64,000 nt of DNA from Clostridia bacterium (GCA_022801925.1 JAAWTG010000013.1:1-64000), one strand, 5' to 3'. Positions 4,935-62,264 are shown, counted from the stretch's first letter. The notes: generated by a model from the sequence alone, not told the origin. A program made the numbers and translations.

Positions 4935-4947
4935 GGGGGATAGAGAG

Positions 4948-5832: not shown

Positions 5833-5865
5833 TGAAACAATTAAAATATAAGGAGGAAAATGAAA

Positions 5866-9847: not shown

Positions 9848-9901
9848 ATGGATATATTTAACCGTAAATATATCATACAAGATGAATTGTGGAAAATATA
9901 A
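9848..9901 (+). CDS. Possible 17-codon leader peptide coupled to the GH88 gene
   Basis: An ATG at 9848 follows the near-ideal site AAAGGAG. It reads 17 codons (MDIFNRKY...WKI) and stops with TAA at 9899-9901, whose last A is the first base of the GH88 ATG at 9901. The GH88 start lacks its own strong ribosome-binding site. The overlap therefore looks like translational coupling, with this small frame delivering ribosomes. The peptide itself has no recognisable function. It could be a leftover of a longer N-terminus, and I have no comparative support. Confidence 0.4.
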   Translation: MDIFNRKYIIQDELWKI

Positions 9902-44400: not shown

Positions 44401-45430
44401 CATTTCCACTTCTTCCAAGGGACGCATTCCGACGCGGGACAGCGTGAAAATCCGCCGCAAAACGGTGGAGCGTAACATTCCGTGTCTGACGAGTATTGAT
44501 ACGGCGAATGCGCTGGCACAAAGCCTGCGTAGCCGGTATTCCGAAACTTCCATTGAACTGGTAAATTTGAATCAGATGAGGAAGGATAAAATGAAACTGA
44601 ACTTTACAAAAATGCAGGGCTGCGGCAATGACTATATTTATTTTAACTGTTTCAGCCAAACCATTGACAATCCGGAAGGACTGAGCGTATCGCTGTCCGA
44701 CCGCCATTTCGGTATCGGCGGAGACGGCGTGGTGCTCATTTGTCCGTCAGACGTGGCGGACGCAAAAATGCGTATGTTTAACTTAGACGGCAGTGAAGGA
44801 AAAATGTGCGGGAATGCGATTCGCTGTGTGGGGAAATATCTCTATGATAACCACATCACAGACAAAGAAACCGTGACAATTGAGACGCTCAGCGGCATCA
44901 AAACCGTGGAACTCATCAAACGCAATCATGTGGTGCAGCGCGCCAAAGTGGATATGGGTAAAGCGGAACTCACGCCATCGCTGATTCCTGTAAAAATGCA
45001 GGGCGACAAGGTGGTGGGCGCGCCGGCGAATATCGGCGGCAAGGACTATGACATCACCTGCGTTTCCATGGGAAATCCGCATTGCGTGGTGTTCTGCGAA
45101 TCAGTGGACGCGATTGATATTGAAACGCTGGGGCCGCAGTTTGAAAATGATTCGCTGTTTCCGGAACGCGTGAACACGGAATTTGTGAAGGTGTTAGATG
45201 GAAACACCCTGAAAATGCGGGTGTGGGAACGCGGCAGCGGCGAGACGTGGGCGTGCGGTACAGGTGCGTGTGCGGCGGCGGTAGCGGCCGTGGAAAACGG
45301 ATATTGTAAAAAGAACGAAGATATTACCGTGAAACTCAAAGGCGGAGATTTGGTGATTCGCTATACGGACGCTGCTGTTTTCATGACGGGCGATGCGACA
45401 GCGGTCTTTGAAGGTGAGATTACAGTTTAA
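41387..45430 (+). CDS. carB: CarB-DapF in-frame fusion: carbamoyl-phosphate synthase large subunit joined to diaminopimelate epimerase
   Basis: Residues 1-1068 are a complete CarB: two ATP-grasp halves (GQAAEFDYAGTQACRALKE and GQGVEFDYASVHCVWALKE) and the allosteric domain ending in SIELVNLNQM. No stop codon follows; the frame continues through RKDK into a complete DapF at 1069-1347. Stops are present in the other two frames at this spot (TGA at 44577, TAA at 44587), so a single-base change could have merged once-separate genes. An AGGAAGGA site also precedes the internal ATG at 44591. Whether a 1347-residue polypeptide is made is open. Confidence 0.9.
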   Translation: MPLNKKLKKVMVIGSGPIVIGQAAEFDYAGTQACRALKEDGIEVVLVNSNPATIMTDQAMADAVYIEPLHPKTIKRIIQKERPDGLLSTLGGQTGLTLSMQLAKEGFLDEYGVELLGADPVTIDKAEDRQMFKDTMLSIGQPVIPSQVVTDVDSAVTFANQNGYPLIIRPAFTLGGSGGGIAKDETELREICGNGLEVSPIHQVLVEKSVAGWKEIEFEVMRDSKGNVITVCSMENFDPVGVHTGDSIVIAPAVTLADKEYQMLRSAALNIITALKVNGGCNCQFALNPDTFEYAVIEVNPRVSRSSALASKATGYPIAKVATKIAIGYTLDEIKNAVTGKTCACFEPALDYVVVKFPKWPFDKFVYANRTLGTQMKATGEVMAIGATFEEAMMKAVRGAEISRMTLHNKHFVPLTDKEIEAKLHECNDERLFAVVEALERGITKETIHDITKIDLWFLAKLEHLVRFEATLKQGKPDDTLYLQAKKLGYLDKTIEELSGCKIKQPRHAAYKMVDTCAAEFSAETPYFYASYEEENEAAEFIANAKKSEKGTVIVFGSGPIRIGQGVEFDYASVHCVWALKEAGYDVVIVNNNPETVSTDFDTADRLYFEPLTIEDAMNVVQTEQPVGVVVAFGGQTAIKLTNELDRRGVKILGTSADSIDMAEDRERFDALLEKLQIRRPQGYTVMNTNDALEVAKKIGYPVLMRPSYVLGGQNMIIAFTDDDIKEYMKIILDQNIENPVLIDQYLMGTELEVDAICDGENILIPGIMEHIERAGVHSGDSIAVYPAWNVSDEMTERIVECSKNLAVSLKTKGLVNIQYLIYQEELYVIEVNPRSSRTIPYISKVTGVPMVDLATRAMLGESLEEMGYGTGLYKLSPYIAVKVPVFSFEKLMGVDNHLGPEMKSTGEVLGIGNNLEEALYKGLIAAGYHMKKQGGIFISVRDTDKHEIAEAAKQYHDLGFKLYATRGTAEVLRQAELPVTVVDKIHESEHNTLELIESGKIQYVISTSSKGRIPTRDSVKIRRKTVERNIPCLTSIDTANALAQSLRSRYSETSIELVNLNQMRKDKMKLNFTKMQGCGNDYIYFNCFSQTIDNPEGLSVSLSDRHFGIGGDGVVLICPSDVADAKMRMFNLDGSEGKMCGNAIRCVGKYLYDNHITDKETVTIETLSGIKTVELIKRNHVVQRAKVDMGKAELTPSLIPVKMQGDKVVGAPANIGGKDYDITCVSMGNPHCVVFCESVDAIDIETLGPQFENDSLFPERVNTEFVKVLDGNTLKMRVWERGSGETWACGTGACAAAVAAVENGYCKKNEDITVKLKGGDLVIRYTDAAVFMTGDATAVFEGEITV
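44591..45430 (+). CDS. dapF: Diaminopimelate epimerase moiety with its own possible start
   Basis: DapF interconverts LL- and meso-diaminopimelate for lysine and peptidoglycan. The 279-residue segment begins MKLNFTKMQGCGNDYIYFNC and keeps both catalytic cysteines: MCGNAIRCVGKYL, and ETWACGTGACAAAVA. An AGGAAGGA site lies 4 bp before the ATG at 44591, so separate translation inside the carB frame is possible. dapL, the preceding step of the same pathway, is 24 bp downstream. Confidence 0.85.
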   Translation: MKLNFTKMQGCGNDYIYFNCFSQTIDNPEGLSVSLSDRHFGIGGDGVVLICPSDVADAKMRMFNLDGSEGKMCGNAIRCVGKYLYDNHITDKETVTIETLSGIKTVELIKRNHVVQRAKVDMGKAELTPSLIPVKMQGDKVVGAPANIGGKDYDITCVSMGNPHCVVFCESVDAIDIETLGPQFENDSLFPERVNTEFVKVLDGNTLKMRVWERGSGETWACGTGACAAAVAAVENGYCKKNEDITVKLKGGDLVIRYTDAAVFMTGDATAVFEGEITV

Positions 45431-46687: not shown

Positions 46688-46945
46688 GCCTAAGATTCAT
46701 AAAAAATTATGACCGGACTGTGGTGCAAAAAAAGAGGAACGTCATAGGTCTCAAATAAGAAAAATGTTTTGATTTTTTTCGGTTTATTCTAAAAAAGGAA
46801 CACATATGAGAGGGAGACCAAACTGTGAAATCCTATTTGTCGCGCGGATTTTGGGTTTTGGGACTTATCTTTGCTTTTTGGCACTTGCTTAGGAAAAGCG
46901 CTGCGTGATATGATAATAGTATCAACAAAAAGGGAGGGCGTCGAT
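46688..46945 (+). other. Intergenic promoter region of the second glycan locus
   Basis: No gene is visible. A possible promoter (TTGCTT about 46888, TATGAT about 46912, 18-bp spacer) lies close to the lyase start. A TGGCAC at 46878 lacks the TTGC spacing needed for sigma-54. Confidence 0.35.
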
Positions 46946-49900
46946 ATGAGATTAAAGCGAGGTGGCAGAGTCACCGGTCTTATGTTGAGCATTGCCATGC
47001 TGGTAACGTTAATCAGTTTTCCGGCAGCGGCGGATTCTGAAAATCTTGCCGGCGGGGTAACAGCGCAGGTAGCATTTCATGACAGCGCGGGGAAAGCATT
47101 AGAGAGCGCTGCTACCACGATTCGGAAAATGACGGATGGAAATGAGGCGTCGGTATTTGACTCTCCGCTGGGAACCGATGGCGGTTGGTACTTATTTGAT
47201 TTATATACCTTAAGCTGGGTGAACAGGCTTCGGATTAAGGAATTAAATTCCACCATTCAATCCTATTACATTGAAGTATCAACAGACGGGAAAAAATGGA
47301 GCAGAGTGTTTACAGGGACGCTGATAGGCGCTTATGGGAAAACGCTGAATTTTCCGGCAACAAAAGCAAGATACATACGGCTTACCGTCACAAAGACGGA
47401 TAATGAATATCAAGATGCGGTGGTGTCCATTGCGGAATTCGGTGTATATTCCGCCAATGAATTGGATAAAACCGATTTGAAAAACTCCATTTATCTGGCA
47501 GAACAGAAACTGGGGTTGATGCGGAATGAAAAAATGAAGCATCACTACAGCGCAGAGGTGGAACAACAGTTTAAAGAAGCGCTGGAGAAAGGACAGCAGA
47601 TTTTGAATCAAAGCATGGACCAGACAACGGTAGATGGTGCGCGGGATATGCTGGACACCCTAGTGACCGACTATATGGCGAGTTTAACGCCCATGCCGGA
47701 GGATTTCCAAAACATCAGCAATTTTTGGAGAGAAAATTTTGTGGGAAACGAAAAGCCATATGACGATGAACGAAAAAAATCCATTGCCAATCTGGAAGCG
47801 ACAGTGGACGAGTATCTGGCAACCATTATTCGCAATCCCAAAACAGAACTGTGGTCGGAATTTATTCCGATTCGTTCCAACGAGGCGATGGAATCAAGCA
47901 AAATCAACGAAACGCTCACAAAATTCCGTTTTATGGCTACGGCATACGAGCAGGAACATAACAAATATTATAAAGATGCAGAATTGCTGAAAACTATATT
48001 GGACGGCGTGGATTTTATTTTAACAAATAAATATTATCCGGGTATCACGCAATATGGAAACTGGTGGTATTGGACGGTGTCCACGCCAACGGAACTGACA
48101 CAAATTATGATGATTTTGGGCGAAGACGCACCGGAGGAACTGTGTAAGCGGTGTGAGGACGGCATTAACACACATTTAGACGAAAATTTTCACATTACTG
48201 TGCAGGGGACGAATCGGCTATATTTCGCAACCATTTCATTAAAGATGGCGGCAATGGTTAAAAATCCGCTGTATATTCATAAGACAGTGTATTCCATAGC
48301 GCAGGAGACACGCTCCAATGATACGGTGCCACAAGGCGTTCCGACAGACGGATTTTATTGGGACGGTTCGTTCATGTATCATAGCGGTATCCTCTACAAT
48401 GCATCCTATGGAAGGGATAAGATATCCAACACCATGAGTTATGTAACACAGCTTAGTGGTACACCGTGGCAGATGGAACAATATATCATGGATGATTTGG
48501 CGCAAAAAATGACGGACGGCTTTGAAGGTATTATGTATGATGGTTATGTAGTAGATAATACAGCCGGTCGAAGCGTGGGAAGCGGCGCCGGACAGGGAAT
48601 GATGATTTCTTCTTCCATCGGTTCGCTGGGCGACCAAATGTCGGAGCCCTACCGTTCCAGATTCAAGGGAATCTATAAAGAAACATTGATGCAGCAGGGG
48701 GATTTGGAGAACGAATTGGTGAAAGACGAAAGCGTCATTGCACGTGGTCCCATTACATGGCTGAAACGGTATCCGGTAGGGGATAAAGTGGTGCTGCAGC
48801 GACCGGAATACGGCGTGGGATTATCCATGTTCAGTGACCGCACCAAAACCTTTGAAGCGCCGAACGGAGACGCAATGCAGGCTTGGTATGCCAGTTCGGG
48901 AATGACCTATTATCTCACGAAAGACAAGAGTCAGTTTAATAGTGATTATTGGGTGGCGGTAGACCATTACCGGCTGCCGGGTATCACGGTGGACATGGTT
49001 CCCAGAACATTGACACGTTTTGAAGGGGAAATGTATAACAGCAACAGCTGGGTTTCCAGCATGGATTATAATGAAGAATACGGCGTGGCGGGCATGGAGG
49101 TTTGCAACTGGAACAGCAGCTTGACCGGACGCAAATCGTGGTTCTTGTTCGATGATGAAATTGTTTGTCTCGGCAGCGGTATCACCGGAGGAAGTTCCGA
49201 GGTGGAAAGCATTGTAGATAACCGTATGCTGAAAGAAGGCGCTTCCAACCGGCTGGTGGTAAACGGCGAAGAAATTTCCGAGACGGAATTTGAAAAGAAA
49301 GACCAGACGGTGAAAACCATCTATTTGGAAGGAAATACAGAAAACGCGGATATGGGATACTATTTTCCGGGAGAGCAAAAAGTCACTTATCAAAAAGAGC
49401 ATCGCTCCGAAAAGAAAGCGGATATGTGGCTGTCGGATAGCTTGGAAACAGTAGACGCTGATTTTTGCAAGATTCGCTATGAACATGGCATCAATCCCAA
49501 AAACGCAGGCTATTCCTATGTCGTATTGCCGAACACCACGCAGGAGCGGCTCAAGAAATATGAAGCGGAACCGGATATTGAAATTCTGGCACAGGACGAT
49601 AAGGTACACGCGGTTCGGGATAATAAACTCGGCGTAACCGGCTATAATTTCTGGAGCAGCCAAGGCGGTGAAGCGGGCGGCATTCGTACCAATGGCAAGT
49701 TGATTTTGATGAATGCGGAAAATGAACATCAGGCAGAATTTTCCATGACGGAGCCAACCATGAAAGGCGGAACCGTAACAGTGACCTGCGATTTTGACGC
49801 AGCAAAGGTGCTGGAGGCAGGAGATGCGGTTGAAATCCTCAGCATGGCGCCCCTATCCTTTAAAGTGAACATGAACAACACGGAAGGCAAAAAAATAAAA

Positions 49901-50374
49901 CTCACTGTGGCAAAGACAAAACCGGAATATTCTGACGCGCAGTTATCTGATGCGCTAGTGATGAAGGCGGATGCGGATACCTATATGATTTCCAATGTGG
50001 TCAAAGAGACAGGCAATCTGCCCAAGGCTGTGAAAAAGGACGGTCGTCTGTATTTGCCGCTGAAAACAGTGGCGAAAGCGATGGGTTCCAGACTCAGCTA
50101 CGGTGAGAGCCAGAAAACATGGCAGTTGCTTGACGACCGCACCACTTGGATTGGTGAAGACGGTACTGTAACCATCAACGGAGAGAAGCAGCAGACGAAG
50201 GACGCTGCGGTGTTTACTGGCGAGGACGGTACATTTTATGTGACGCCGGAACTTCTGGAATTGCACTATAAAACGTCTGTTGTGGTATCAGGCGATGTTG
50301 CCGTTTTACGTCCCGCAGGCAGATTGCCGGAGGACGCGATAGAAAAGATTGCCCGCTATATTGGCTGGGAATAA
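46946..50374 (+). CDS. Secreted polysaccharide lyase, family 8
   Basis: An enzyme that cleaves uronate-containing polymers by beta-elimination (the family covers hyaluronate, chondroitin and xanthan lyases). The 1142-residue protein has a signal peptide (1-35), a discoidin-like F5/8C domain (about 60-175), and the PL8 alpha-toroid (about 230-600) with NWWYWTVSTPTELTQ near 371. Catalytic residues are likely Asn423, His479 and Tyr488; the nine-residue His-Tyr spacing is as in streptococcal hyaluronate lyase. A beta-sandwich region and a C-terminal copper-amine-oxidase-N-like module (about 1025-1142) follow. The ATG at 46946 follows AGGGAGGG. Confidence 0.87.
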   Translation: MRLKRGGRVTGLMLSIAMLVTLISFPAAADSENLAGGVTAQVAFHDSAGKALESAATTIRKMTDGNEASVFDSPLGTDGGWYLFDLYTLSWVNRLRIKELNSTIQSYYIEVSTDGKKWSRVFTGTLIGAYGKTLNFPATKARYIRLTVTKTDNEYQDAVVSIAEFGVYSANELDKTDLKNSIYLAEQKLGLMRNEKMKHHYSAEVEQQFKEALEKGQQILNQSMDQTTVDGARDMLDTLVTDYMASLTPMPEDFQNISNFWRENFVGNEKPYDDERKKSIANLEATVDEYLATIIRNPKTELWSEFIPIRSNEAMESSKINETLTKFRFMATAYEQEHNKYYKDAELLKTILDGVDFILTNKYYPGITQYGNWWYWTVSTPTELTQIMMILGEDAPEELCKRCEDGINTHLDENFHITVQGTNRLYFATISLKMAAMVKNPLYIHKTVYSIAQETRSNDTVPQGVPTDGFYWDGSFMYHSGILYNASYGRDKISNTMSYVTQLSGTPWQMEQYIMDDLAQKMTDGFEGIMYDGYVVDNTAGRSVGSGAGQGMMISSSIGSLGDQMSEPYRSRFKGIYKETLMQQGDLENELVKDESVIARGPITWLKRYPVGDKVVLQRPEYGVGLSMFSDRTKTFEAPNGDAMQAWYASSGMTYYLTKDKSQFNSDYWVAVDHYRLPGITVDMVPRTLTRFEGEMYNSNSWVSSMDYNEEYGVAGMEVCNWNSSLTGRKSWFLFDDEIVCLGSGITGGSSEVESIVDNRMLKEGASNRLVVNGEEISETEFEKKDQTVKTIYLEGNTENADMGYYFPGEQKVTYQKEHRSEKKADMWLSDSLETVDADFCKIRYEHGINPKNAGYSYVVLPNTTQERLKKYEAEPDIEILAQDDKVHAVRDNKLGVTGYNFWSSQGGEAGGIRTNGKLILMNAENEHQAEFSMTEPTMKGGTVTVTCDFDAAKVLEAGDAVEILSMAPLSFKVNMNNTEGKKIKLTVAKTKPEYSDAQLSDALVMKADADTYMISNVVKETGNLPKAVKKDGRLYLPLKTVAKAMGSRLSYGESQKTWQLLDDRTTWIGEDGTVTINGEKQQTKDAAVFTGEDGTFYVTPELLELHYKTSVVVSGDVAVLRPAGRLPEDAIEKIARYIGWE

Positions 50375-50404
50375 TCAAAACATAGAAAGGTTGAGAGGTG
50401 GCTT

Positions 50405-53290
50405 ATGAAAAAGTTAATGGGGATGTTTTTGATACTGGCGATGCTTGCCGGAACTTGCACCATGGTACCGGCGGCGGAGAATGGTATTGATTCCTTGCTG
50501 CAGGAGGCGGAAGTGTTTTTAGAAGCATTTCATTTGGTGAGCAATGCGGCGGATAATTCCGCGCAGGTAACGCGTGCGGAATTTGCGGGCGCGGTAGCGA
50601 ATGTGATGGAACGGGCAAATCAGTTTTATGAGATTGACAACGTTATCCGAATCAGTGATGTGACGGAGGAAGACGCGAATTACCGCGCAATCTCCTTCCT
50701 TGCAAGTATCGGTTATATGAAAGGCGAAATGGAAGCACCGGGCGTGTATCGGTTTCGGCCGGACGATCCGGTAACGCATTTGGAAGCGTTGAAAGTCATG
50801 GTAGACGTTTTGGGATACAGCAATGTGGTGCAGGCGTATGGCGGATATCCTATCGGATATGTAGATGTGGCAAATAGAGCGGGTATTTTGAAAGGAATGT
50901 CCAGCGATGCGGAGAAATCAATGACCTGGGCAGATGTGAAAAAACTGGTTTTTCGCAGCATGAATGCAGCCGTTGCGGAACTTACCGGCGTGAACGGAAC
51001 GACAGTGACGATTGAGGCGGACAGAAACAACAGCTATTTGCGGAAATATTGGAATTTGGAAAAAGTGGAAGGGATTGTCACCGCCAACAGTCTGATTGAT
51101 TTATATGGACAAGAACCGATGAGCGGGACGCAAAGCAATATCCGGATTGATGATGACGTTTATACGACGGCTTATACGGCGCAGGCAATGAATTATCTGG
51201 GGCAGCGGGTGCGCGCATATGTGGATAGAAGCGTAACGGCGCAGGAAAATGAAATTGTGTGTCTGTATCCGGTGCCGGGCAAAAATGAAACCCTTCGCGT
51301 GCAGAGCAGAGACATCCTTTCCAGAAACGGGCTGCGTAGCATACGGGCGGAAGTGAACGGCAGAGCAGAGACCCTTCAGATGGCTGATGACGGAGCCGTG
51401 TTTGTAGGCTTTGAGTATCTGGGACCGGTGCGCTCTATCAATCCGCAGAGCTTTGATGTGAAAGAAGCTTTGAAAGCGCTGGAGAAAAACAATTGCGAAG
51501 TTCTGTTTGTGGATAACAATCAGGACGGAAGCTATGATTTGATGTGGATTCGCGCTTATGAGGATTATTTGATTAACAATTTCATTTTTGATACGTTCAC
51601 CATAGCAGACAGATATAACAAATCCGTTACCATGGAACGCGCCTATAAAAACAACAAGATTATTTTGACCGACCGAGACGGCGCAGTGGTGAATCCAAAG
51701 GATTTGGAAAGCAATCAGGTTGTTTCGCTTATTACAAAAGCAGATGAGAGTGGTGAAATACAGCGCGCCTTTGGCGTGGTTTGCAAAGAGAGCATTTCCG
51801 GCGCCATCAGTTCCTTGGTGCAGGACGGCGTCCAAAGAGCGGTGATTAACGGCACGGAATATGAAATTTCCGAGGAATATACCGCGCTGGTAGCGGCAAA
51901 CAATAAAAAAGTGAAAAAACTGGCGGTTGGGTTGGACAGCGCCTTTTTCCTGAATGCGCTTGACCAGATTGTTGGAATTGATTTCAACCTGCTCTCCGGC
52001 GGAAATTTGGTCTATGGTTTTGGAACTGTGGTAGGACGTGCAAGCGGTTTGGGCGGGCCGGTGCAAATGAAAATCGTGACAGCGAGCGGCGCTGTGGAAA
52101 GCTTTGAATGTGCGTCCAGAGTGAAAGTCAACGGACAGGCGTGTACGGGAGATCAGACTTATGAAACGCTGTGGAAATTATCGCAGTTCTATTCAGTGGA
52201 CGGCGCACGGCCAAACGAAACATTCATTCTGTACAAAATGCTGCGTTATGCCGTATCCGGCGGCAAAATCAATGAATTGGAAGTGGAAATCGACCATGCG
52301 GAGCCGGACAGACTGTATGCGGAAAAGAAAATCCGCTCTAATGACAGCTTGTCGATGACCCGATATAAATCCAACACGATTGGAAAACAGGTGGGCGTGA
52401 ATGCCAACACGCTGCTGCTGAGCATTCCCTATCCGGCAAAGGCGCAGGAAGCTGTGAGTGACGATACGGCATTTTCTTTGATAAACTCCAATGAAATGAT
52501 ACCGGACTGCGTGTTGGGCATCGGCGGCTTGAAATCAGCGGTAAGCGGCAGAGGGGAAATGCATTTCTATAATCTGTCCAGCACAAAATTTGCGGAGGCT
52601 GCCATTCGGTATTATCCTTACGAAGGCGGTTCAAAGGTAACAACCGAGCCGGATCCGCTGGACGACAATTTGATTGTGGATAAAGTGATACGCGGCTCGA
52701 ACAGCGACGGAGATTCCGTTATGATACTCAAAGGCTGGCGCGCCGGCGTTTATACCACGCTGAGAACAGCGCCGATTGAAAATCCGGAGGATCCATGGGA
52801 TCAGTTATATGGCGTGAAAAATATGATTATGGAAAGAAATGTAGATGGTAATTTAACAGACTGGACGGTGAAAGATGCAGACGGAAAAAATGTGAGCGCA
52901 ATCACCGATATCCGGCAGGGAGACGTTATTCACTATTTGCTAAACAGTAAGGGAGAAGTGATTAACGCAATCATCAATGTGCGCGCCATGGAAAAAGAAA
53001 ATGCGGCTTGGCTCAAAGCAGGGCAGTTCAGCAGCGACCATTCGATTGCCTATTTGGGCGTAAACTATGGTGAGATTATTGAATGGGACAGCAGTGGATG
53101 CACGGTTGTGCTGAAAGAACTGGACGGAGAAGAACGCGTATATGCGCTAAGTTCAGCAACACGGGTCACCGTGGTGAACCGTACAACAGAAAACATCAGT
53201 ATGGGAAATGTGGCGGAATTTGAACTGGGCAATGATGTATACATTCGCCAGTACTATGGAATTGTCAAAGAAGTTGTTTACTTTAAATAA
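50405..53290 (+). CDS. SLH-domain surface protein with N-terminal SLH repeats
   Basis: The signal peptide (1-24, LMGMFLILAMLAGTCTM) is followed by SLH-like repeats (about 50-190, with YRFRPDDPVTHLEALKVMVDVLGY). A beta-rich body of more than 750 residues has no family I know. It aligns in layout with the protein at 1387-3957, including the closing DVYIRQYYG..KEVVYFK. It starts 30 bp after the lyase gene and lies 17 bp before another SLH gene. I infer a cell-wall-bound glycan receptor or scaffold. Confidence 0.87.
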   Translation: MKKLMGMFLILAMLAGTCTMVPAAENGIDSLLQEAEVFLEAFHLVSNAADNSAQVTRAEFAGAVANVMERANQFYEIDNVIRISDVTEEDANYRAISFLASIGYMKGEMEAPGVYRFRPDDPVTHLEALKVMVDVLGYSNVVQAYGGYPIGYVDVANRAGILKGMSSDAEKSMTWADVKKLVFRSMNAAVAELTGVNGTTVTIEADRNNSYLRKYWNLEKVEGIVTANSLIDLYGQEPMSGTQSNIRIDDDVYTTAYTAQAMNYLGQRVRAYVDRSVTAQENEIVCLYPVPGKNETLRVQSRDILSRNGLRSIRAEVNGRAETLQMADDGAVFVGFEYLGPVRSINPQSFDVKEALKALEKNNCEVLFVDNNQDGSYDLMWIRAYEDYLINNFIFDTFTIADRYNKSVTMERAYKNNKIILTDRDGAVVNPKDLESNQVVSLITKADESGEIQRAFGVVCKESISGAISSLVQDGVQRAVINGTEYEISEEYTALVAANNKKVKKLAVGLDSAFFLNALDQIVGIDFNLLSGGNLVYGFGTVVGRASGLGGPVQMKIVTASGAVESFECASRVKVNGQACTGDQTYETLWKLSQFYSVDGARPNETFILYKMLRYAVSGGKINELEVEIDHAEPDRLYAEKKIRSNDSLSMTRYKSNTIGKQVGVNANTLLLSIPYPAKAQEAVSDDTAFSLINSNEMIPDCVLGIGGLKSAVSGRGEMHFYNLSSTKFAEAAIRYYPYEGGSKVTTEPDPLDDNLIVDKVIRGSNSDGDSVMILKGWRAGVYTTLRTAPIENPEDPWDQLYGVKNMIMERNVDGNLTDWTVKDADGKNVSAITDIRQGDVIHYLLNSKGEVINAIINVRAMEKENAAWLKAGQFSSDHSIAYLGVNYGEIIEWDSSGCTVVLKELDGEERVYALSSATRVTVVNRTTENISMGNVAEFELGNDVYIRQYYGIVKEVVYFK

Positions 53291-53307
53291 GGAACGGAGG
53301 GAAAACA

Positions 53308-56235
53308 GTGAAAAAACTATTAGCAGCAATACTGACGTTGACGGTATTCCTCGGAGCATTTGCGTGGAATGCGGGCGCGGCAAATGTCATTGAGAGAGAC
53401 GATGTTTGGCTTCATCTGCCGGGCGGAGACGGCACTGTTGTGGGCGGAAACTGGGGCGGAACATGGACGAACTACCAGCCCGCGCCGGAAGGCGGCACGC
53501 AGAAAGCCTTATATTTTGATGGGGCGCAGGGAATCTACCGTGGACTTCAGGCAGCGTGGTCCTGGCCCGGTAATTTTGATGTCACTTTTGACGTCTACCC
53601 TACAACTGCAAAATCAAAATTTGTATTTATACCGCGGACATTAGCGGGCGGCAAGACTCAGTGGGATCAACATGCGGTATCTTTAACAGAAAAAGGTAAA
53701 TTGCTGGTAGATAATGCGAACGGCGGCGTGGGTACCAGCGGCGGTGTTTCGGCAGGCTATTATGTAGAAAATGTGTGGTACCGCTTTAAACTCCATTTTG
53801 ACTATGTGAAGCATGTCTATGATGTCTGGCTACTGGAAGGTACTTTGAAAGAGACGAAAGAGGGCGAGGCAGTACAGGTAACAAACCAGCATTTGGGGCA
53901 GTTTGCGCTGAGAAGTAATGCAGTAGGTCTGGTACAGATAAATATTGATGGAAAAGACCTTTATTTAGATGAGTTTTGTGCAAGAGGCGGCAACATTGAA
54001 TATGGTATCGGTGATGGCAGCGATATTGCCATCGAAGTGGGAGCAACCACTATTCCCATCTATTTGAACCAAGCGTTGAAGATGGCAACAAAAGACCAGA
54101 TTGCGGTGACAAAAAACGGAACTGCATTAAAAGTTGGAACGGATTATACAGTCAGCTATGACATTCCCTATAATGGGGTACAAACCAATGTGGGACTGGG
54201 ATTAAAAATCACTTTGACGGAAGCGGCGCAGGAAAACGATACATTCACTATTGATTTGTCATCACAGGCAGATTTTATGGATACCAGACTTTCCGGTGCG
54301 ATACTGACTGTTCCGTGTGTGTCGAGCGAGACACTAGCGCAGTTTAATGCCGCAGTGGAGGGCGTTGCGGAAAGCGTGACAGCGGAAAATCCGGGAGTGG
54401 ATCTGACAGCCGTAACGGAAAACCTGACAATGCCTTCGGCGGGACTGAACAACTCGGAAATTACATGGAAGTCTTCCACCGACCCGTCTACGTTATCCAT
54501 ATCCGGCGAGGTGACCAGACCGGCATACAGTGACGAACAAGACACCTCCAAAACCGTGACACTGAAGGGAACCGTTACCATGGGAGGCTTAAGTAAGGAA
54601 TTTTCGCTAGAGGTAGTGGTTAAGATGGAGATGCCCGCAGAGAGTTGGTTTGCGCTTCGGGCAGCAGCGACGCAAATGGAAGCGCTGCTGCCGGAAGCGG
54701 ACGCAGTGCTGAGCGATACGCTGGAACTGCCGGAATCTTATACAGTAGAAGAATATACGGACGGAACAGTAGACATAAGCTATCAATTAGAGGGAGACGG
54801 CGCCGACTATTTTAAAATAGAAAACGGCGTCGGGAAACCGGAAGGAAAGCTGTTGACCGATTTTGAAGGAGACGGCACGGAATTTGATGCGCAGGTGACG
54901 GTAACGGCTACGCTGACAAAAGGGGCGGAACTGCCGCGTGTTATCAGCCGTACCTATACCATACCGCACCGGCATATTTTAACAGGTCAAACAAGCAGCA
55001 CAGAGGCAGCGGCAGTGCTGGATACGGATCCGGCTACCGTGTGGACGGCGGAAGGAACCACGGCGAATCTGGATATTCCGCTGAAAACAGAAATGGTAAT
55101 CGGCGATATCCGCGCAGTGAACTCCAGCTATGACAATCTCAAATGGTACTATCAGGGACGGGCAAAAAGCTGGCAGGAAGTGACAGAGTTTCCGGTAGCG
55201 GCAACGGCGCTGCGCGCGGAGGTAACAAAAGCCGGCGGCGGCATTCAGATTGGCAGCGTGGAGGCGATTCTCACCGATGCGCAGTTGCTGAAATTTGATA
55301 TACAGGGCGTGGAAATCGAAGACTCTCTGAATCAGATTACAGCTTCTTTCATCAAACTTCCGCTGGTGACGGAACATGGATTGGAATTGGTTTGGGAATC
55401 CAGCAACCCCAATGCCATTGATAAATTCGGGACGGTAAAACATCAGTCCACGGAGCAAAGTGTTACGCTAACCGCAAGAGGCAGAGATTCCAAAGGCGCT
55501 GTGATTGAGGGAATACAAAAAACATTTTCGGCTACGGTACAGGCGAAGACGGCAAGCAACCAGGGCAATACCGTCGGCAGCTACGGCGGCGTAGGCAGAG
55601 GAAGCGGCGGCCGCGGCGGAAATGTAGTTGACGGAACGTTTCCGGCAACCACGCCGATGCCGGTTGCACCGCCTACCCAGACCGCGCCGCCGGAACAGCA
55701 GCCGGAACGGTTTTCCGATATGGCGGACAGCTGGGCAAAAGAAGCGGTTTATGCATTGGCGGAAAAGAATATTGTAAACGGCAACGAGAACGGACAATTT
55801 TTGCCGGATAACAATATCACGCGTGAAGAATTTGTCAAACTGCTGGTATGTGCGTTTGATATCAATGCAGAGAAAAAAGCAATATTTTCTGATGTGGCGG
55901 ACGGTGCATGGTATGCGGATTATGTATGTACGGCAGGCGGCGCGGGATTGGTGCAGGGCGCATATGGCGCGTTTGGCGTGGGACAGAGTTTGACCAGACA
56001 AGATTTGGCGCTGATGGTTGCCCGCATCATGAAAGTGAAGGAATCAGATGCGACAGCAACGTATACCGACTGGGAACAGGTACGGCAGGACGCCAAAGCG
56101 GCGGTGGCAGCGCTGAGTGAGGCAGGCATTTTGAGCGGCTATCCCGACGCAAGTTTCCGACCGGAACAAACGGCTACGCGTGCGGAAGCGACGCTGGTGC
56201 TGTATAAGGTCATGGAAAAAATGGGGAAAAACTAA
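53308..56235 (+). CDS. SLH-domain surface protein with LamG-like and Ig-like modules
   Basis: A signal peptide (1-24) comes first, then a concanavalin/LamG-like beta-sandwich (about 25-235, with WYRFKLHFDYVKHVYDVWL). Several bacterial Ig-like modules follow, one with the ITWKSSTDPSTLSISGEVTRP pattern near 385-405 and another with LVWESSNPNAI near 690-700. A Gly-rich and Pro/Thr-rich linker (about 755-795) leads to three C-terminal SLH repeats (about 795-975). The LamG-like fold suggests sugar binding. The GTG start follows CGGAGGG. It is the counterpart of the partial gene at 2-1372. Confidence 0.87.
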   Translation: MKKLLAAILTLTVFLGAFAWNAGAANVIERDDVWLHLPGGDGTVVGGNWGGTWTNYQPAPEGGTQKALYFDGAQGIYRGLQAAWSWPGNFDVTFDVYPTTAKSKFVFIPRTLAGGKTQWDQHAVSLTEKGKLLVDNANGGVGTSGGVSAGYYVENVWYRFKLHFDYVKHVYDVWLLEGTLKETKEGEAVQVTNQHLGQFALRSNAVGLVQINIDGKDLYLDEFCARGGNIEYGIGDGSDIAIEVGATTIPIYLNQALKMATKDQIAVTKNGTALKVGTDYTVSYDIPYNGVQTNVGLGLKITLTEAAQENDTFTIDLSSQADFMDTRLSGAILTVPCVSSETLAQFNAAVEGVAESVTAENPGVDLTAVTENLTMPSAGLNNSEITWKSSTDPSTLSISGEVTRPAYSDEQDTSKTVTLKGTVTMGGLSKEFSLEVVVKMEMPAESWFALRAAATQMEALLPEADAVLSDTLELPESYTVEEYTDGTVDISYQLEGDGADYFKIENGVGKPEGKLLTDFEGDGTEFDAQVTVTATLTKGAELPRVISRTYTIPHRHILTGQTSSTEAAAVLDTDPATVWTAEGTTANLDIPLKTEMVIGDIRAVNSSYDNLKWYYQGRAKSWQEVTEFPVAATALRAEVTKAGGGIQIGSVEAILTDAQLLKFDIQGVEIEDSLNQITASFIKLPLVTEHGLELVWESSNPNAIDKFGTVKHQSTEQSVTLTARGRDSKGAVIEGIQKTFSATVQAKTASNQGNTVGSYGGVGRGSGGRGGNVVDGTFPATTPMPVAPPTQTAPPEQQPERFSDMADSWAKEAVYALAEKNIVNGNENGQFLPDNNITREEFVKLLVCAFDINAEKKAIFSDVADGAWYADYVCTAGGAGLVQGAYGAFGVGQSLTRQDLALMVARIMKVKESDATATYTDWEQVRQDAKAAVAALSEAGILSGYPDASFRPEQTATRAEATLVLYKVMEKMGKN

Positions 56236-56274
56236 AATGTTATCAATGAGGGAATATGAATAAAATGAAGGGGA

Positions 56275-56352
56275 AATTAACGTGAAAAATCACGTTAATT
56301 GATTTGATTGTCCCTGCAATATTTTCGCCTTTGGCGAAAATGCAGATGGACA
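56275..56352 (+). promoter_or_regulatory. Two strong hairpins in the leader of the second transporter operon
   Basis: Hairpin one has 11-bp arms AATTAACGTGA / TCACGTTAATT with loop AAAA (56275-56300). Hairpin two has ATTTTCGCC / GGCGAAAAT arms extended outward by TGCA pairs and TGTCC/GGACA (56309-56352). Neither has a U-tract, so an mRNA-processing or stabilising role for the highly needed binding protein is more likely than termination. Confidence 0.5.
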
Positions 56353-56441
56353 GCAATATCCATTATACGCCTTATCCGCCCACGATAAGGACGTTAGGAT
56401 TTTTCATTTCAATTTGTGGGCAGAAAGGCTATGATATTATT

Positions 56442-58031
56442 ATGAAAAAAGCAAGAATTGCGGCGGCCGTCCTGGCGGCGCTTGTAGGCACGACCGTTTT
56501 ACTGTCGGGCTGCGGTAACGGAAACGGCGGGACAAATACGACGGCGGACTTGGATAAACTAAAAAAATCCTCATATCCCATTGACACAGATGTGAAACTC
56601 ACCTATTGGAGTCAAGCCTACAGTTCGGATGCGGACACCAATGCGTGGAACACAGAATATCAGAAGCGGCTGGGCGTCACATTTGAGCGGATGCACCCCG
56701 CTGCCGGACAAGAGGTAGCGCAGTTTAACGTGATGATTGCATCGGGAGAATTGCCGGATATTGTGGACTGGTATTGGGCGGATTATGTCGGCGGACCGGA
56801 CAAGGCGATTACGGAAGGCTCAATTGCCAAACTCAATGACTTGCTTCCGGAATATGCGCCGGATTTCTGGAACTATTTACAGGAGAATGAATTTATCAAT
56901 AAACGCAGCCGCACAGACGAGGGGAATTATTACTATTTTCCGGGTCTGGTACAGTATGGCGGTGAAAATGAAAAACTGCGTGTAACGGCGGGATATATGT
57001 TCCGGAAAGATTATCTGGACAAAATGGGACTGGAGGTTCCGGAAACCATTGACGATTGGCATCATGTGCTGACGACCTTTAAAAACAACGGGATTGAATC
57101 GCCGCTTTGTATTTCGGCAAACGATGTGTTCCGCGGTCTGGTCGGCGCATTTGGTGTGCCGAGCGGCTGGTATCAGGTGGACGGAAAGGTCATGTATGGC
57201 AATATACAGCCGGAATTTAAAGAATGCCTGAGCGTGTTGAAGCAGTGGTATGATGAAGGGCTTTTCGACAAAAACTTTATCAATCTGGATACGAAAACCG
57301 TAGACGCAAAGCTGCTCGGCGGTGAAGCCGGCGCGGTATTCGGCTGGCTTGGTTCCGGTATGGGAAAATGGCTGAGCGCCGCAAAAGATTCCAATCCAGC
57401 ATTCGATTTGGTGGGCGTACCGTATCCGGTGAAAAATCGCGGCGATGTGACCAAATTTGCCACAAAAGACGCAGTCGTATATTCTAGGGGTCCTGCCATT
57501 AGCGCAAAAAGTAAACATAAAGAGTTGGCGGTAAAAGTTTTAAACTATGGATATACAGAGGAAGGTCATAACTTCTTCAACTTTGGTCAGGAAGGCCTTA
57601 GCTATAACATGGTGGACGGAATGCCGACCTATTCTGAGTTGATTACAAACAATCCGGACGGACTTACTTTTGACGAAGCGCTGGCCGCTTATACATCAGC
57701 AACAGGCAAAGGCGCTTATGTACAGGATTTGCGCTATATTGAACAGCGTTACCGCTTCCCGCAGCAGAAAGCCGCGCAGGAGGTATGGATGAAAACGGAA
57801 GTGGATACCTATGCAATGCCGCCGCTTACGCCGACCGGCGAGGAAAGTCAGGAATTTTCCGCCATTGTGAACGACATCAATACCTATGTGCAGGAAATGT
57901 ATTTGAAGTTTATTACAGGAAAAGAGCCGCTGGATAAATTTGATGCATATGTGCAGCAGGTGAAAGACTATGGATTGGAGCGTGCGACAGAGATTCAGCA
58001 AAACGCGCTGGATCGTTTTAATAAGCGATAA
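56442..58031 (+). CDS. Extracellular sugar-binding lipoprotein, LplA type
   Basis: MKKARIAAAVLAALVGTTVLLSGC is a lipoprotein signal with lipobox LSGC; the long upstream extension of the frame has no signal and is rejected. The mature part resembles the binding protein at 5866-7422 (LTYW near the start, HPAAGQEVAQF, GGPDKAITEG). It should deliver an oligosaccharide to the permeases encoded next. A four-codon frame (ATG at 56431) ends in TGA overlapping the start ATG, with AAAGG before it. This may be coupling or chance. Confidence 0.92.
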   Translation: MKKARIAAAVLAALVGTTVLLSGCGNGNGGTNTTADLDKLKKSSYPIDTDVKLTYWSQAYSSDADTNAWNTEYQKRLGVTFERMHPAAGQEVAQFNVMIASGELPDIVDWYWADYVGGPDKAITEGSIAKLNDLLPEYAPDFWNYLQENEFINKRSRTDEGNYYYFPGLVQYGGENEKLRVTAGYMFRKDYLDKMGLEVPETIDDWHHVLTTFKNNGIESPLCISANDVFRGLVGAFGVPSGWYQVDGKVMYGNIQPEFKECLSVLKQWYDEGLFDKNFINLDTKTVDAKLLGGEAGAVFGWLGSGMGKWLSAAKDSNPAFDLVGVPYPVKNRGDVTKFATKDAVVYSRGPAISAKSKHKELAVKVLNYGYTEEGHNFFNFGQEGLSYNMVDGMPTYSELITNNPDGLTFDEALAAYTSATGKGAYVQDLRYIEQRYRFPQQKAAQEVWMKTEVDTYAMPPLTPTGEESQEFSAIVNDINTYVQEMYLKFITGKEPLDKFDAYVQQVKDYGLERATEIQQNALDRFNKR

Positions 58032-58045
58032 GGAGAGAAGAAATA

Positions 58046-59038
58046 GTGGCTAGGGAAAGCAATGTAATACAATGCAATACAATGCAATACAAAAAACAAA
58101 CGCTTCATTTGGCGGCGGCAGAGGAGCGCTTTGGAACAAGACTCAAAAAAGATTTGATAAAATATCGAGGACTGTATCTTCTGTTTATACCAATCGTGAT
58201 TTATTATGTGGTGTTTCATTATGTCCCTATGTATGGTCTGATTATCTCGTTTAAAGATTTCTCGCCGGCAACAGGGATTTTGGGCAGCCAGTGGGCGGGC
58301 TTAAAACATTTTAAAAGTTTTTTAAGCAGCCCCTATTTCGGCAGAGTGTTTATGAACACCATTAACATTAGTTTTTGGTCACTGGCGGGAGGCTTTCCGG
58401 CACCGATTCTTCTTGCGCTGCTCATCAATGAGGTGCGGGGGATAAGATATAAAAAGCTGGTGCAAACGGTATCCTATATTCCGCATTTCATTTCTCTGGT
58501 GGTGGTGGTGGGTATGATTAAAACCTTCACGGCGGACGGTGGATTTCTCAACAATCTTTTAACCGCCATGCACATCACAACCGGAGAAGATATGCTGAAT
58601 GTGAAGGAATATTTTGTTCCCATCTATGTCATATCGGGTATTTGGCAGGGCGTGGGTTGGGGAACCATTATTTATCTGGCGGCGCTGTCCTCCATCAGTC
58701 AGGATTTATATGAGGCGGCGGAAATCGACGGAGCGGGGCGGTGGCAGCAAACCATCAGAATCACGCTGCCCTGCCTGATGCCCACGATTGTGATGCTCTT
58801 GATTTTGCAGATTGGCGGTTTGATGAACGTTGGCTACGAGAAAATCATTCTGATGTATAACCCCCTTACCTATGAAACGGCGGATGTCATTTCCAGTTTT
58901 GTATACCGGAAGGGGCTTTTAGAGGCAAGTTACAGCTATTCATCAGCAGTGGGGCTGTTTAATTCCGTGATTAACTTCTTTTTGCTTATCACTGCGAATT
59001 ACATCAGCAAAAAGTGCGGCGAATCAGCCATTTGGTAG
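58046..59038 (+). CDS. ABC sugar transporter permease, LplB type
   Basis: This is the first membrane subunit of the second importer: about six helices, the first near 48-70, and the EAA loop YEAAEIDGAGRWQQ near 226-240. The start is GTG behind AAGGAGAG. The first codons are made of a 10-bp repeat (AATGCAATAC, three copies at 58061-58090), so an in-frame ATG at 58082 is an alternative. Alignment with the paralog at 3972-4934 favours the GTG. Confidence 0.93.
   Translation: MARESNVIQCNTMQYKKQTLHLAAAEERFGTRLKKDLIKYRGLYLLFIPIVIYYVVFHYVPMYGLIISFKDFSPATGILGSQWAGLKHFKSFLSSPYFGRVFMNTINISFWSLAGGFPAPILLALLINEVRGIRYKKLVQTVSYIPHFISLVVVVGMIKTFTADGGFLNNLLTAMHITTGEDMLNVKEYFVPIYVISGIWQGVGWGTIIYLAALSSISQDLYEAAEIDGAGRWQQTIRITLPCLMPTIVMLLILQIGGLMNVGYEKIILMYNPLTYETADVISSFVYRKGLLEASYSYSSAVGLFNSVINFFLLITANYISKKCGESAIW
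58061..58090 (+). repeat. Three tandem 10-bp units in the permease N-terminus
   Basis: AATGTAATAC, AATGCAATAC, AATGCAATAC lie head to tail. Ten is not a multiple of three, so gain or loss of a unit would shift the reading frame. Each unit holds an ATG, and the three ATGs fall in three different frames. Confidence 0.85.
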
Positions 59039-59048
59039 GAGGAAGACT

Positions 59049-59924
59049 ATGAAAACAAGTATACAAAGGCGTCTGTTTCTGGTGGGCAACAATCTTTTTT
59101 TGCTGCTGCTACTGATAACAATGATTTATCCTATGCTTTATGTCGTGTTTGCATCTTTTTCGGATTCCTATGAATTGATGCGCCATCAGGGGCTTTTACT
59201 GTGGCCGATAAAGGCGAATATACAGGCATATCTCAAGGTGCTGCAAAACAAAGATATTTTCACAGGGTATCTGAACACCATTTTTATTGTGGGAGTAGGT
59301 ACCGGAATCAACATGGTTATGAGCATTTTGGCAGCGTTTTTCTTTAGTCATAAGGGAATGATGCTGAAAAAACCGCTGATGTTGATGGTTATTTTTACCA
59401 TGTATTTTGGCGGCGGCATGATTCCAAACTATTTGTTGATTAAAGGACTGGGATTGATTGACAGTCTTTGGTCGCTGCTGCTGCCGGGTGCGGTGGGAAC
59501 CTATAATATGATTATTTTGAAACGCGGATTCGAGTCTCTGCCGGCAAGTCTGGAGGAATCGGCTATGCTGGACGGCGCCAGCTATATCACGGTTATGCTG
59601 CGCATTGCCGTTCCGCTGAGTTTAAGCACGATTGCAGTCATCATTTTGTATTATGCGGTGGGTCACTGGAATGCTTGGTTTAATGCAAGCATTTATCTGA
59701 AAACCAGAGCGAAATTTCCGTTGCAGCTGATTTTGCGAGAAATCCTGATTAGCAATGATACCTCGTCCATGGATACGGCGGTGAGTTATGAGGAAAAAGC
59801 CGTGGTGAGCGAAACCATAAAATATGCGATTATTGTGGTGTCAACCGTACCGATTCTCTGTATCTATCCGTTTTTACAAAAGTATTTTATTCAAGGCGTA
59901 ATGACCGGTGCGGTAAAGGAATAG
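59049..59924 (+). CDS. ABC sugar transporter permease, LplC/YtcP type
   Basis: This is the second membrane subunit, 291 residues. The N-terminal helix is at about 12-35 and the EAA loop LEESAMLDGASYITV near 173-187. It closely parallels the protein at 4948-5832 (MYFGGGMIPNYLL, LPLSL or VPLSL after the EAA loop, YPFLQKYFIQGVMTGAVKE at the end). It starts 11 bp after its partner behind TAGGAGG. As in locus 1 no ATPase gene is present. Confidence 0.95.
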   Translation: MKTSIQRRLFLVGNNLFLLLLLITMIYPMLYVVFASFSDSYELMRHQGLLLWPIKANIQAYLKVLQNKDIFTGYLNTIFIVGVGTGINMVMSILAAFFFSHKGMMLKKPLMLMVIFTMYFGGGMIPNYLLIKGLGLIDSLWSLLLPGAVGTYNMIILKRGFESLPASLEESAMLDGASYITVMLRIAVPLSLSTIAVIILYYAVGHWNAWFNASIYLKTRAKFPLQLILREILISNDTSSMDTAVSYEEKAVVSETIKYAIIVVSTVPILCIYPFLQKYFIQGVMTGAVKE

Positions 59925-59987
59925 ACAATGCAGCCGCAAGGAAAAGCCCGTACAATAATCTGTGCGGACTTTTTCTGTTCGCGGATA

Positions 59988-60016
59988 TTGATATTATGGC
60001 GGCATTGTGTCATAAT
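59988..60016 (+). promoter_or_regulatory. Probable promoter of the second AraC regulator gene
   Basis: TTGATA (59988-59993), 17 bp, CATAAT (60011-60016), 23 bp before the start codon. Confidence 0.55.
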
Positions 60017-60038
60017 GATATCTAGGCAGGGGGAATAG

Positions 60039-62264
60039 ATGATGAAAAGCAACGTATGGAAAAGTGTAAAAAACATATGGGTGATTTCGTACACTTTTGT
60101 TTTTTTGCTGCCTATTTTGATTGGTGTATTTAATTATATTTATTATTATAACGTTATGAAAAACGATATTATCAGCAACAGCGAGATGCGCCTGCAAGAT
60201 ATTCAGTATAATATTAACAACGAAATTTCCCATCTGTACGACGGGAAAAATGTCATTTCACGTATCAAAAATTTGGGAATGATTGCTATGGCAGATTCCG
60301 AAGAAGTGACGGAGTATGAATTGCTCGAAGCGCGCTTGAATCTCGCACAAAACAGCAGTAATTCATATGAATACGGTATCTATTATAAGAATTTGGATTG
60401 TGTCGTGACCGGCAGCGCAGTATATGATACAAAGTATTATTACCGCATCTATTTCTCAGCGCAAATGGGATGGGAAGAATTTCTTGATTTTTTGGGTTCC
60501 GCATCTTCTTCTATTCGCTGTGTGAAAAACAGTGAAGGCGATGTTTTTTTCACACAACATGTGAGCAACGTTGTGGATACCTTTTTTGTACTCAAAAGCA
60601 GCTATCTCAAAGAAGTGATGCAGATGGATAATGCACTGCCCGGCTCTGTTTTAGTCATGCTGGACGGAGAAAAAAATATTCTCTATAGCAACACGCAGGT
60701 GAGTGATGCAGAAATCAAGCAGGTTTTGGGAGAAAAGGAGCAGATGGAACAGAATGTATCCTTTCAAGGTAAGTCCTATACAACACTGCGTTTTACCAGC
60801 AATGGACTGCAATATGTGTTCTTTATACCCAATCAATTTTTTAGAGCGCGTATGCAGCGGATTCAATATGGGTATTTACTGACGGTGCTTCTGTGTCTGC
60901 TTTGCGGCGGTATCAGCATATTTGTTATGATACGCATGAACTACCGACCGGTAAATAAATTGATTGAATATGTAAACGTGAGAGAAAAAGGGGAGAATGA
61001 ATATAAAGCCATTGCAGACTTTTTAGACCGTACCATCGGGCAGAACAAGAAATTAGAAAACCGTTTGAGAAAGAGCCGTGATATTGTGCAAAGTGAAATG
61101 ATTAACCGGATATTGCTGGGGAAGTTCGTGGATTCCGGCGACCAGAAAGAATTGCTGGAGAAATTAGGATTTTGCGGTGACGACAATCATTTTGTGGTGC
61201 TGACCTTTAGCGTCAGCGATTATGGGGTTTTAGAGGAAGATGAAGAGCATATTGACGAGGCGGAAATACATCATATTGCTTGCCTTGTCATGAACAATAT
61301 TATCGGCGAATTGATTGACCGGCAATACAGATGCGTCATGAGCGAGTTGGAAGAGAATTTGGTGTGTATCGTCAATTTAGGCGTTTTAGTGGAAGAAAAT
61401 GTGTGTGAACACATGAAACATATTGTTATGGAAGCGCAGGAGCATATCCGCTTTCATTTCAAATTCTCATTTTTGACCGGTATCGGAACAGTGGTAACAG
61501 GAACGGAACGTCTGCCGGACAGTTATTTGGATTCTTTGGCAGCGCTGCAAATGGGCGATGAAAAATATGGTGAAATTTCCCTCTGTTCCCAGAGAAACGT
61601 TTCGGAGACTTATAAATATTACCGCTTTTATGAGAAAGAGAAAATGTTGACAGAGGTGATTCGGGCAGGAGACTATGAACATGCCAGCAAGTATATGAAA
61701 GAAATGATTGAGGAATGCACCAAAAACTCCAGACAGGTGATGGGCATTTCAAAATGTCTTTTATATGATATCATCAATGTAATTATCAAGAATTGTATGT
61801 TGGATTCTCAGTTTGCAGAAGAAGCGGATATTGTGAATTTGGAGCGAATGTTTCTCAGCGATAACCCTGTGGAACTCTTGCGAGAATTGGATACACTGCT
61901 GCGAAAAACATGCGAACTCGGGCAGATGCAGAGCGATAACGATTCCAATTTGAGTCAGGAAATTCAAAGCTATATTGATGAGAATTTTTCAGATTTCAAC
62001 TTGAATGTGAACAAAGTTGCTGAACATTTTCAATATACGCCGTTCTATATTTCTAAAATTTTTAAAGAAATGTGCGGAAAAAGCATTCTGCAATACATTA
62101 TGGAAGTGCGCATGAAGAATGCACAGGAACTTTTACGCAGAAGCGACATTCCTGTGATGGATGTGGCAGGAAAAGTGGGCATTACGAATAAAAGTACATT
62201 TATGCGCGTATTTAAAAAAGCGACCGGTATGACGCCGGGACAGTTCCGAAAGTTAGGGAAGTAA
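60039..62264 (+). CDS. Membrane-anchored AraC-family regulator
   Basis: 741 residues: a transmembrane segment at about 14-36, an extracytoplasmic sensor region to about 280, a second membrane segment (YGYLLTVLLCLLCGGISIFVMI, near 282-303), and a long cytoplasmic middle. The C-terminal AraC DNA-binding domain (about 640-740) contains VNKVAEHFQYTPFYISKIFKEMCG and GITNKSTFMRVFKKATG. Length and order match the regulator at 7542-9758. It likely switches on the second glycan locus in response to its substrate. Confidence 0.93.
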   Translation: MMKSNVWKSVKNIWVISYTFVFLLPILIGVFNYIYYYNVMKNDIISNSEMRLQDIQYNINNEISHLYDGKNVISRIKNLGMIAMADSEEVTEYELLEARLNLAQNSSNSYEYGIYYKNLDCVVTGSAVYDTKYYYRIYFSAQMGWEEFLDFLGSASSSIRCVKNSEGDVFFTQHVSNVVDTFFVLKSSYLKEVMQMDNALPGSVLVMLDGEKNILYSNTQVSDAEIKQVLGEKEQMEQNVSFQGKSYTTLRFTSNGLQYVFFIPNQFFRARMQRIQYGYLLTVLLCLLCGGISIFVMIRMNYRPVNKLIEYVNVREKGENEYKAIADFLDRTIGQNKKLENRLRKSRDIVQSEMINRILLGKFVDSGDQKELLEKLGFCGDDNHFVVLTFSVSDYGVLEEDEEHIDEAEIHHIACLVMNNIIGELIDRQYRCVMSELEENLVCIVNLGVLVEENVCEHMKHIVMEAQEHIRFHFKFSFLTGIGTVVTGTERLPDSYLDSLAALQMGDEKYGEISLCSQRNVSETYKYYRFYEKEKMLTEVIRAGDYEHASKYMKEMIEECTKNSRQVMGISKCLLYDIINVIIKNCMLDSQFAEEADIVNLERMFLSDNPVELLRELDTLLRKTCELGQMQSDNDSNLSQEIQSYIDENFSDFNLNVNKVAEHFQYTPFYISKIFKEMCGKSILQYIMEVRMKNAQELLRRSDIPVMDVAGKVGITNKSTFMRVFKKATGMTPGQFRKLGK

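Follow-up and report, generated by a model that had tools for sequence, protein, structure and literature searches.

A new class of surface proteins with N-terminal SLH domains, probably of S-layer type, in glycan loci of a Clostridia bacterium

What does a long surface protein of no known family do beside a polysaccharide lyase and a sugar importer? The question is raised by positions 46946-62264 of a 64,000-nucleotide stretch of the genome of a gut Clostridia bacterium (GCA_022801925.1, JAAWTG010000013.1:1-64000; hereafter the window). An original prediction, made from the DNA alone, had placed there a pair of proteins with S-layer homology (SLH) domains, an importer module and a lyase of polysaccharide lyase family 8 (PL8), and our open reading frames (ORFs) and Pfam domains agree with that layout. 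It had further proposed that the protein with SLH domains at its N-terminal end (N-SLH; 50405-53290) and its counterpart in a first locus (1387-3957) form a new class of glycan-handling surface protein. We favour, at a probability of roughly 0.6, the reading that the N-SLH proteins are paralogues of an S-layer-type protein of the organism itself, copied by duplication to many polysaccharide utilization loci (PULs), each co-inherited with a partner that carries its SLH domains at the C-terminal end (C-SLH).

A large family of N-terminally anchored proteins

Searched with a profile built on the body without its SLH part, the 2.95 Mb genome, in whose assembly the window is contig 71, yields 29 substantial copies. 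The two window proteins are homologous along their full length (22% identity, 152 bits); calling the locus at 46946-62264 a second copy understated the number. SLH domains lie at the N-terminal end in 27 of the 29 proteins and at the C-terminal end in none, and they are C-terminal in 41/47 other SLH proteins nearby. SLH proteins are very numerous in this genome, whose single PS_pyruv_trans gene (121.6 bits) encodes a putative CsaB-type wall-polymer pyruvyl transferase.

Outside the SLH part, the N-SLH body has no sequence relative in Pfam, NCBIfam or the PDB, which bears out the earlier statement that these long proteins belong to no known family. The profile search proposed with that statement assigns the body to no characterised family, and it does connect the SLH part to characterised proteins, namely the SLH domains of the S-layer proteins SpaA and Sap. 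In the 50405-53290 protein itself, the Pfam SLH match is sub-threshold only (14.7 bits; cut-off 20.8). Across the family alignment, conservation in the body falls mostly on glycines and tyrosines, together with a GD motif, and reveals neither an invariant catalytic-type pattern nor a conserved acid, base or aromatic cluster; such conservation argues against an enzyme.

The body profile is present in 77 of 293 genomes of the class, and sampled genomes elsewhere in the phylum returned distant matches only, usually one per genome. Two cultured strains hold many family matches: Ructibacterium gallinarum DSM 107454 (35) and Acetivibrio sp. MSJd-27 (33). R. gallinarum was isolated from chicken, and GTDB-Tk places it in Monoglobaceae (PMC8269260). 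Taken as sequence evidence, these comparisons support a new, unannotated class of surface proteins tied to glycan loci. That part of the original claim stands on the size of the family and on its adjacency to C-SLH genes; that the N-SLH protein itself handles glycans is a conjecture.

Pairing with C-SLH partners

A C-SLH gene on the same strand directly adjoins 25 of the 29 own copies (binomial P ~6e-24 at an assumed chance rate of 8%), 32/40 copies in other genera and 17/20 in R. gallinarum; these are counts of the neighbourhoods studied, those from other genera being taken from high-scoring matches and not at random. Of the four unpaired own copies, one is a stand-alone orthologue, two are longer and divergent, and the last lies at a contig edge. 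An importer is often close as well: for 20/29 own copies, a solute-binding protein (SBP) or permease gene was located no more than 10 kb away by a blast search with window seeds, which may under-call divergent SBPs and permeases.

The partners form two sequence groups. Type 1 partners, to which short unclustered ones were assigned, are mostly ~540-690 aa long and larger in some loci. They are encoded directly upstream of N-SLH in 29 of 31 cases, mostly tens of bases apart or overlapping, and in the short members that were scanned Pfam matches nothing ahead of the SLH triad. Type 2 partners are large and carry F5/8C, aBig_2, CBM_X2, CBM96, Big and heparinase II/III domains (Pfam). Partner type follows the N-SLH tree, many deep forks of which are weakly supported (9 changes vs 24 in shuffles, 0/500), and the distances between type 1 partners correlate with those between their N-SLH proteins (r 0.42, 0/2000). 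We infer that the N-SLH protein and its C-SLH partner may pair physically.

The stand-alone orthologue

The unpaired own copy on contig C47 (G000:C47) belongs to a subgroup common across the group, with 35-49% identity in most matches. A profile of this conserved orthologous subgroup served as query, the full own paralogue set being too diverged, and found the orthologue in 143 stretches of species genomes. In 78 loci, some of them short at contig ends, no same-strand C-SLH neighbour (0/78) and no importer genes nearby (0/78) were seen.

Measured against ribosomal-gene codon usage, the C47 gene has a codon adaptation index (CAI) of 0.843, the top of 294 own genes; the ribosomal genes listed range over 0.74-0.80. 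In other species, the orthologue has the lowest effective number of codons (Nc) of its neighbourhood in 33 of 59 loci (7.1 expected), and the corresponding counts for paired paralogues are near expectation. Top codon bias, an N-terminal SLH triad, a signal peptide and a pyruvyl-transferase gene in the genome would all be expected if a protein were a major S-layer component, and the stand-alone N-SLH protein is plausibly just that, very highly expressed.

Two further observations concern unpaired copies. A ~600-aa N-SLH protein of a second family adjoins the stand-alone gene in 26 loci (e.g., L057 7164-8948), mostly divergent. The unpaired copy on contig C55 (L069 7470-10589; 1039 aa) has the second-highest codon adaptation of the 294 genes and, judged by codon usage, is perhaps a second major surface protein.

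Predicted structure

The structure prediction that had been proposed as a check yields an SLH triad followed by OB-like (oligonucleotide/oligosaccharide-binding-like) beta domains. AlphaFold2 modelled the window N-SLH protein with a predicted local distance difference test score (pLDDT) of 78 and a predicted TM-score (pTM) of 0.54, and the stand-alone orthologue with 88 and 0.57. In both models, the SLH triad superposes on SpaA/Sap (TM by target ~0.7 to ~0.79) and leads into a string of small beta domains. For the body of the stand-alone model, the matches other than spurious ones are to proteins with OB-type domains in tandem (cold-shock domains of Unr at probability 0.98; 3go5 at 0.84; also SSB, HIN and EF-P), none of them over the full length and all with low TM-scores. 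The structure search of the models brought up no prominent match to a solved S-layer body, a carbohydrate-binding module or a porin. The overall prediction for N-SLH is an SLH triad that continues into OB-like barrels arranged in a string. Profile self-comparison of the body gives weak internal repeats (best probability 61%). A likeness of the body to the DDB1 propeller was rejected (Foldseek probability <=0.54, TM ~0.1).

Weighing the explanations

A body without a catalytic pattern, together with an S-layer-like stand-alone orthologue, makes recruitment of an S-layer-type protein to glycan loci the better reading of N-SLH. The S-layer proteins Sap (Bacillus anthracis) and SpaA (Paenibacillus alvei) likewise have a signal peptide, an N-terminal SLH triad and a long beta-rich body, and the stand-alone copy with its extreme codon bias adds to this likeness. 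They differ from the present family, whose OB-like body matches no solved S-layer protein and whose ~29 paralogues mostly lie by C-SLH genes, many in glycan loci. If instead the likeness were confined to a shared anchor, the body could be a domain of a new CAZy-type family that itself binds or cleaves glycans; the PL8 and heparinase-type lyases in the same loci fit this, as do the several OB-like barrels of the model, a fold class that often binds ligands. We nevertheless consider it unlikely, since family-wide the invariant columns hold glycines and the GD motif in place of any acid, base or aromatic cluster, and since the unpaired, strongly codon-biased orthologue sits outside glycan loci.

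The adjacency of N-SLH and C-SLH genes might also reflect mere clustering of SLH genes in islands, with neighbours functionally unlinked, as could happen in a genome so rich in them. That the stand-alone orthologues are unpaired in 78/78, that partner type tracks the N-SLH clade with co-varying type 1 distances, that type 1 genes keep their place directly upstream and that the two proteins are consistently anchored at opposite ends all make such clustering distinctly improbable. Least credible of all is an SLH-anchored porin through which a diderm cell would take up its substrates. The OmpM protein known from diderm Firmicutes (PMC10628300) does share N-terminal SLH domains followed by a long beta-rich part, and the linkage to importers would suit a channel. 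The models, however, show many short strands interrupted by helices, tandem OB-like matches and no porin match, and hence no porin barrel. Omp85/BamA was not found in the 96%-complete genome by a search that was positive in control diderms, which leaves an OmpM-like porin very unlikely.

Several results weigh against recruitment of an S-layer-type protein. The body fold is unlike that of any solved S-layer protein, the SLH part alone matching, and the two window N-SLH genes lack extreme codon bias (CAI ranks 55 and 183 of 294). Co-divergence of type 2 pairs in the own genome is not significant (r 0.10), the blast search placed importer genes within 10 kb of only 10/40 other-genera copies, a number subject to the same under-calling, and pairs without an importer and pairs without an enzyme both occur.

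A working model and known systems

Should S-layer-type proteins have been recruited in this way, the AraC regulator would sense a glycan outside the cell and switch the locus on, and the locus genes would presumably be co-expressed and co-induced. A secreted or C-SLH-anchored lyase and a glycan-binding C-SLH protein could then retain the polymer at the wall and cut it there. The SLH triad of N-SLH would anchor this protein to pyruvylated wall polymer, where it may build a local surface layer or platform that seats its C-SLH partner. Oligosaccharides would be handed on to the lipoprotein SBP and CUT1 permeases, whose genes appear to be co-inherited with N-SLH in most own-genome loci. Glycan handling by the N-SLH/C-SLH pair is likely, and the N-SLH body itself may contact glycan directly.

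In Bacteroidota, SusC/SusD pairs occur as numerous diverged paralogues, each glycan locus having its own pair with a co-inherited partner. The N-SLH/C-SLH pairs resemble them in all these respects and differ in that they appear monoderm, use no TonB barrel and have both partners anchored to the wall by SLH domains; locus proteins gave no Pfam match to a TonB-dependent barrel or SusD, and no Omp85 is found in the genome. Our understanding of how gut Bacteroidota capture glycans is built on these SusCD pairs. As a tentative extension, Monoglobus-type gut Clostridia might possess a modular, glycan-responsive S-layer, with a per-locus N-SLH tile and its cognate C-SLH receptor or enzyme replacing, or inserting into, a constitutive lattice. 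Equally speculative is that such a layer would be a monoderm counterpart of SusCD, by analogy of logic and not by ancestry. Were this true, the S-layer, usually viewed as static armour, would be a programmable, per-glycan part of nutrient uptake, and the number of pairs would serve, for a gut group that is widespread, as an index of glycan loci readable from the genome. The 33-35 family matches in each of the two cultured-strain genomes make the hypothesis directly testable.

The closest described Gram-positive arrangement is probably that of Paenibacillus sp. JDR-2, with SLH-anchored glycoside hydrolases near ABC (ATP-binding cassette) importers and 77 SLH proteins in the genome (PMC4765114). 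Its PULs are alike in their SLH-anchored, CBM-bearing (carbohydrate-binding module) wall enzymes, clustered importers and regulators and many SLH proteins. They differ in that the portions of that paper available to us mention no further family, of N-SLH type and with an S-layer-like body, that would pair with C-SLH. S-layer proteins of Lactobacillus brevis are reported to bind plant polysaccharides (PMC12691797, PMC9026416). A search of the open literature, with subscription papers outside it, returned no S-layer-type family expanded as a per-locus C-SLH partner, and no paper on OB-fold S-layer proteins. SLH-anchored enzymes beside ABC importers are therefore known, and the S-layer-type family as per-locus C-SLH partner appears to be new.

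Gene organisation of the two loci

The second locus (46946-62264) consists of seven same-direction genes with small intergenic gaps; the listed features lie on the plus strand.

46946-50374, +, secreted PL8 lyase with F5/8C, FIVAR, PL8 N, super-sandwich and C domains and a weak Cu_amine_oxidN1 tail (Pfam)
50405-53290, +, N-SLH protein, 961 aa, with signal peptide, SLH triad (~aa 35-195) and OB-like beta-rich body (~aa 218-961)
53308-56235, +, C-SLH partner of type 2, 975 aa, with two aBig_2 domains and a C-terminal SLH triad (3 SLH; Pfam)
56275-56300, +, 11-pair hairpin in the C-SLH/SBP gap, followed by a T-rich tail, a weak terminator or attenuator candidate
56439-58031, +, lipoprotein solute-binding protein, SBP_bac_1 (likely lipoprotein start 56439; mechanical ORF from 56304)
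58046-59038, +, CUT1-type permease A, BPD_transp_1
59049-59924, +, CUT1-type permease B, BPD_transp_1
60039-62264, +, membrane AraC-type regulator, GGDEF_2-like plus HTH_18 (Pfam)
62337-64133, +, 599-aa protein 3' of the AraC gene, its last 136 bases beyond the window end (64000)

The lyase starts at 46946, a TTG at 46871 being an over-extended start. The 599-aa protein has no match in Pfam or NCBIfam. A promoter and terminator scan of the DNA, including the 56275-56300 hairpin, gave site numbers no higher than in shuffles. An enzyme stands beside an importer and a regulator, all co-directional, which is the pattern by which a Gram-positive PUL is recognised. The order PL8, N-SLH, C-SLH, SBP is kept in two congeneric genomes. 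Against these congeners, the ratio of nonsynonymous to synonymous substitution rates (dN/dS) of the 50405-53290 gene is 0.08 and 0.11; the gene is under strong purifying selection. Its C-SLH neighbour (53308-56235) diverges faster between congeners (identity 86% vs 98% for N-SLH, and 74% vs 81%), which fits an exposed part.

The first locus lies at the start of the window, also on the plus strand.

2-1372, +, C-SLH partner of type 1, cut by the contig start
1387-3957, +, N-SLH protein, 856 aa, same family as 50405-53290
3972-5832, +, two CUT1 permeases (3972-4934 and 4948-5832)
5860-7422, +, solute-binding protein
7542-9758, +, membrane AraC regulator
9889-11022, +, GH88-like (glycoside hydrolase family 88-like) protein (E 1.6e-4, below cut-off)
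11075-12859, +, melibiase-like (GH36-type) protein

As the original prediction had noted, the gene order has changed, from C-SLH, N-SLH, permeases, SBP and AraC in the first locus to PL8, N-SLH, C-SLH, SBP, permeases and AraC in the second, with the secreted lyase in front. The clade of the first-locus N-SLH protein (support 98) includes three further loci with PL8 genes nearby, one of them from a different genus, a hint that the class of substrate may follow the N-SLH clade.

The PL8 lyase and its substrate

The lyase is closest to a Paenibacillus xanthan lyase (6f2p, E 1e-100), ahead of hyaluronate and chondroitin lyases. All three PL8 domains are present, and in the alignment to 6f2p the N, H, Y and R positions, which we take to be the catalytic residues, are conserved. 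The window enzyme shares these features with the xanthan (6f2p, 1j0m), hyaluronate (1c82) and chondroitin AC (1cb8) lyases and differs from them in its extra F5/8C, FIVAR and Cu_amine_oxidN1 parts. Because its nearest solved relative is a xanthan lyase, a glycosaminoglycan substrate would be one option among others, and an assay on glycosaminoglycans only, as had been suggested, would be too narrow.

A fused carB-dapF frame

Upstream of the second locus, carB (~1068 aa) and dapF (~279 aa) occupy a single 1347-aa frame (41387-45430) that reads through their junction (44591) without a stop. Two congeners keep this fused frame open at 95-100% identity, and so does a genome from a different family, where it is 1354 aa long and 68% identical across the junction; the CarB-DapF fusion is therefore likely genuine. 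A second carB-like gene lies on contig C77 of the same genome.

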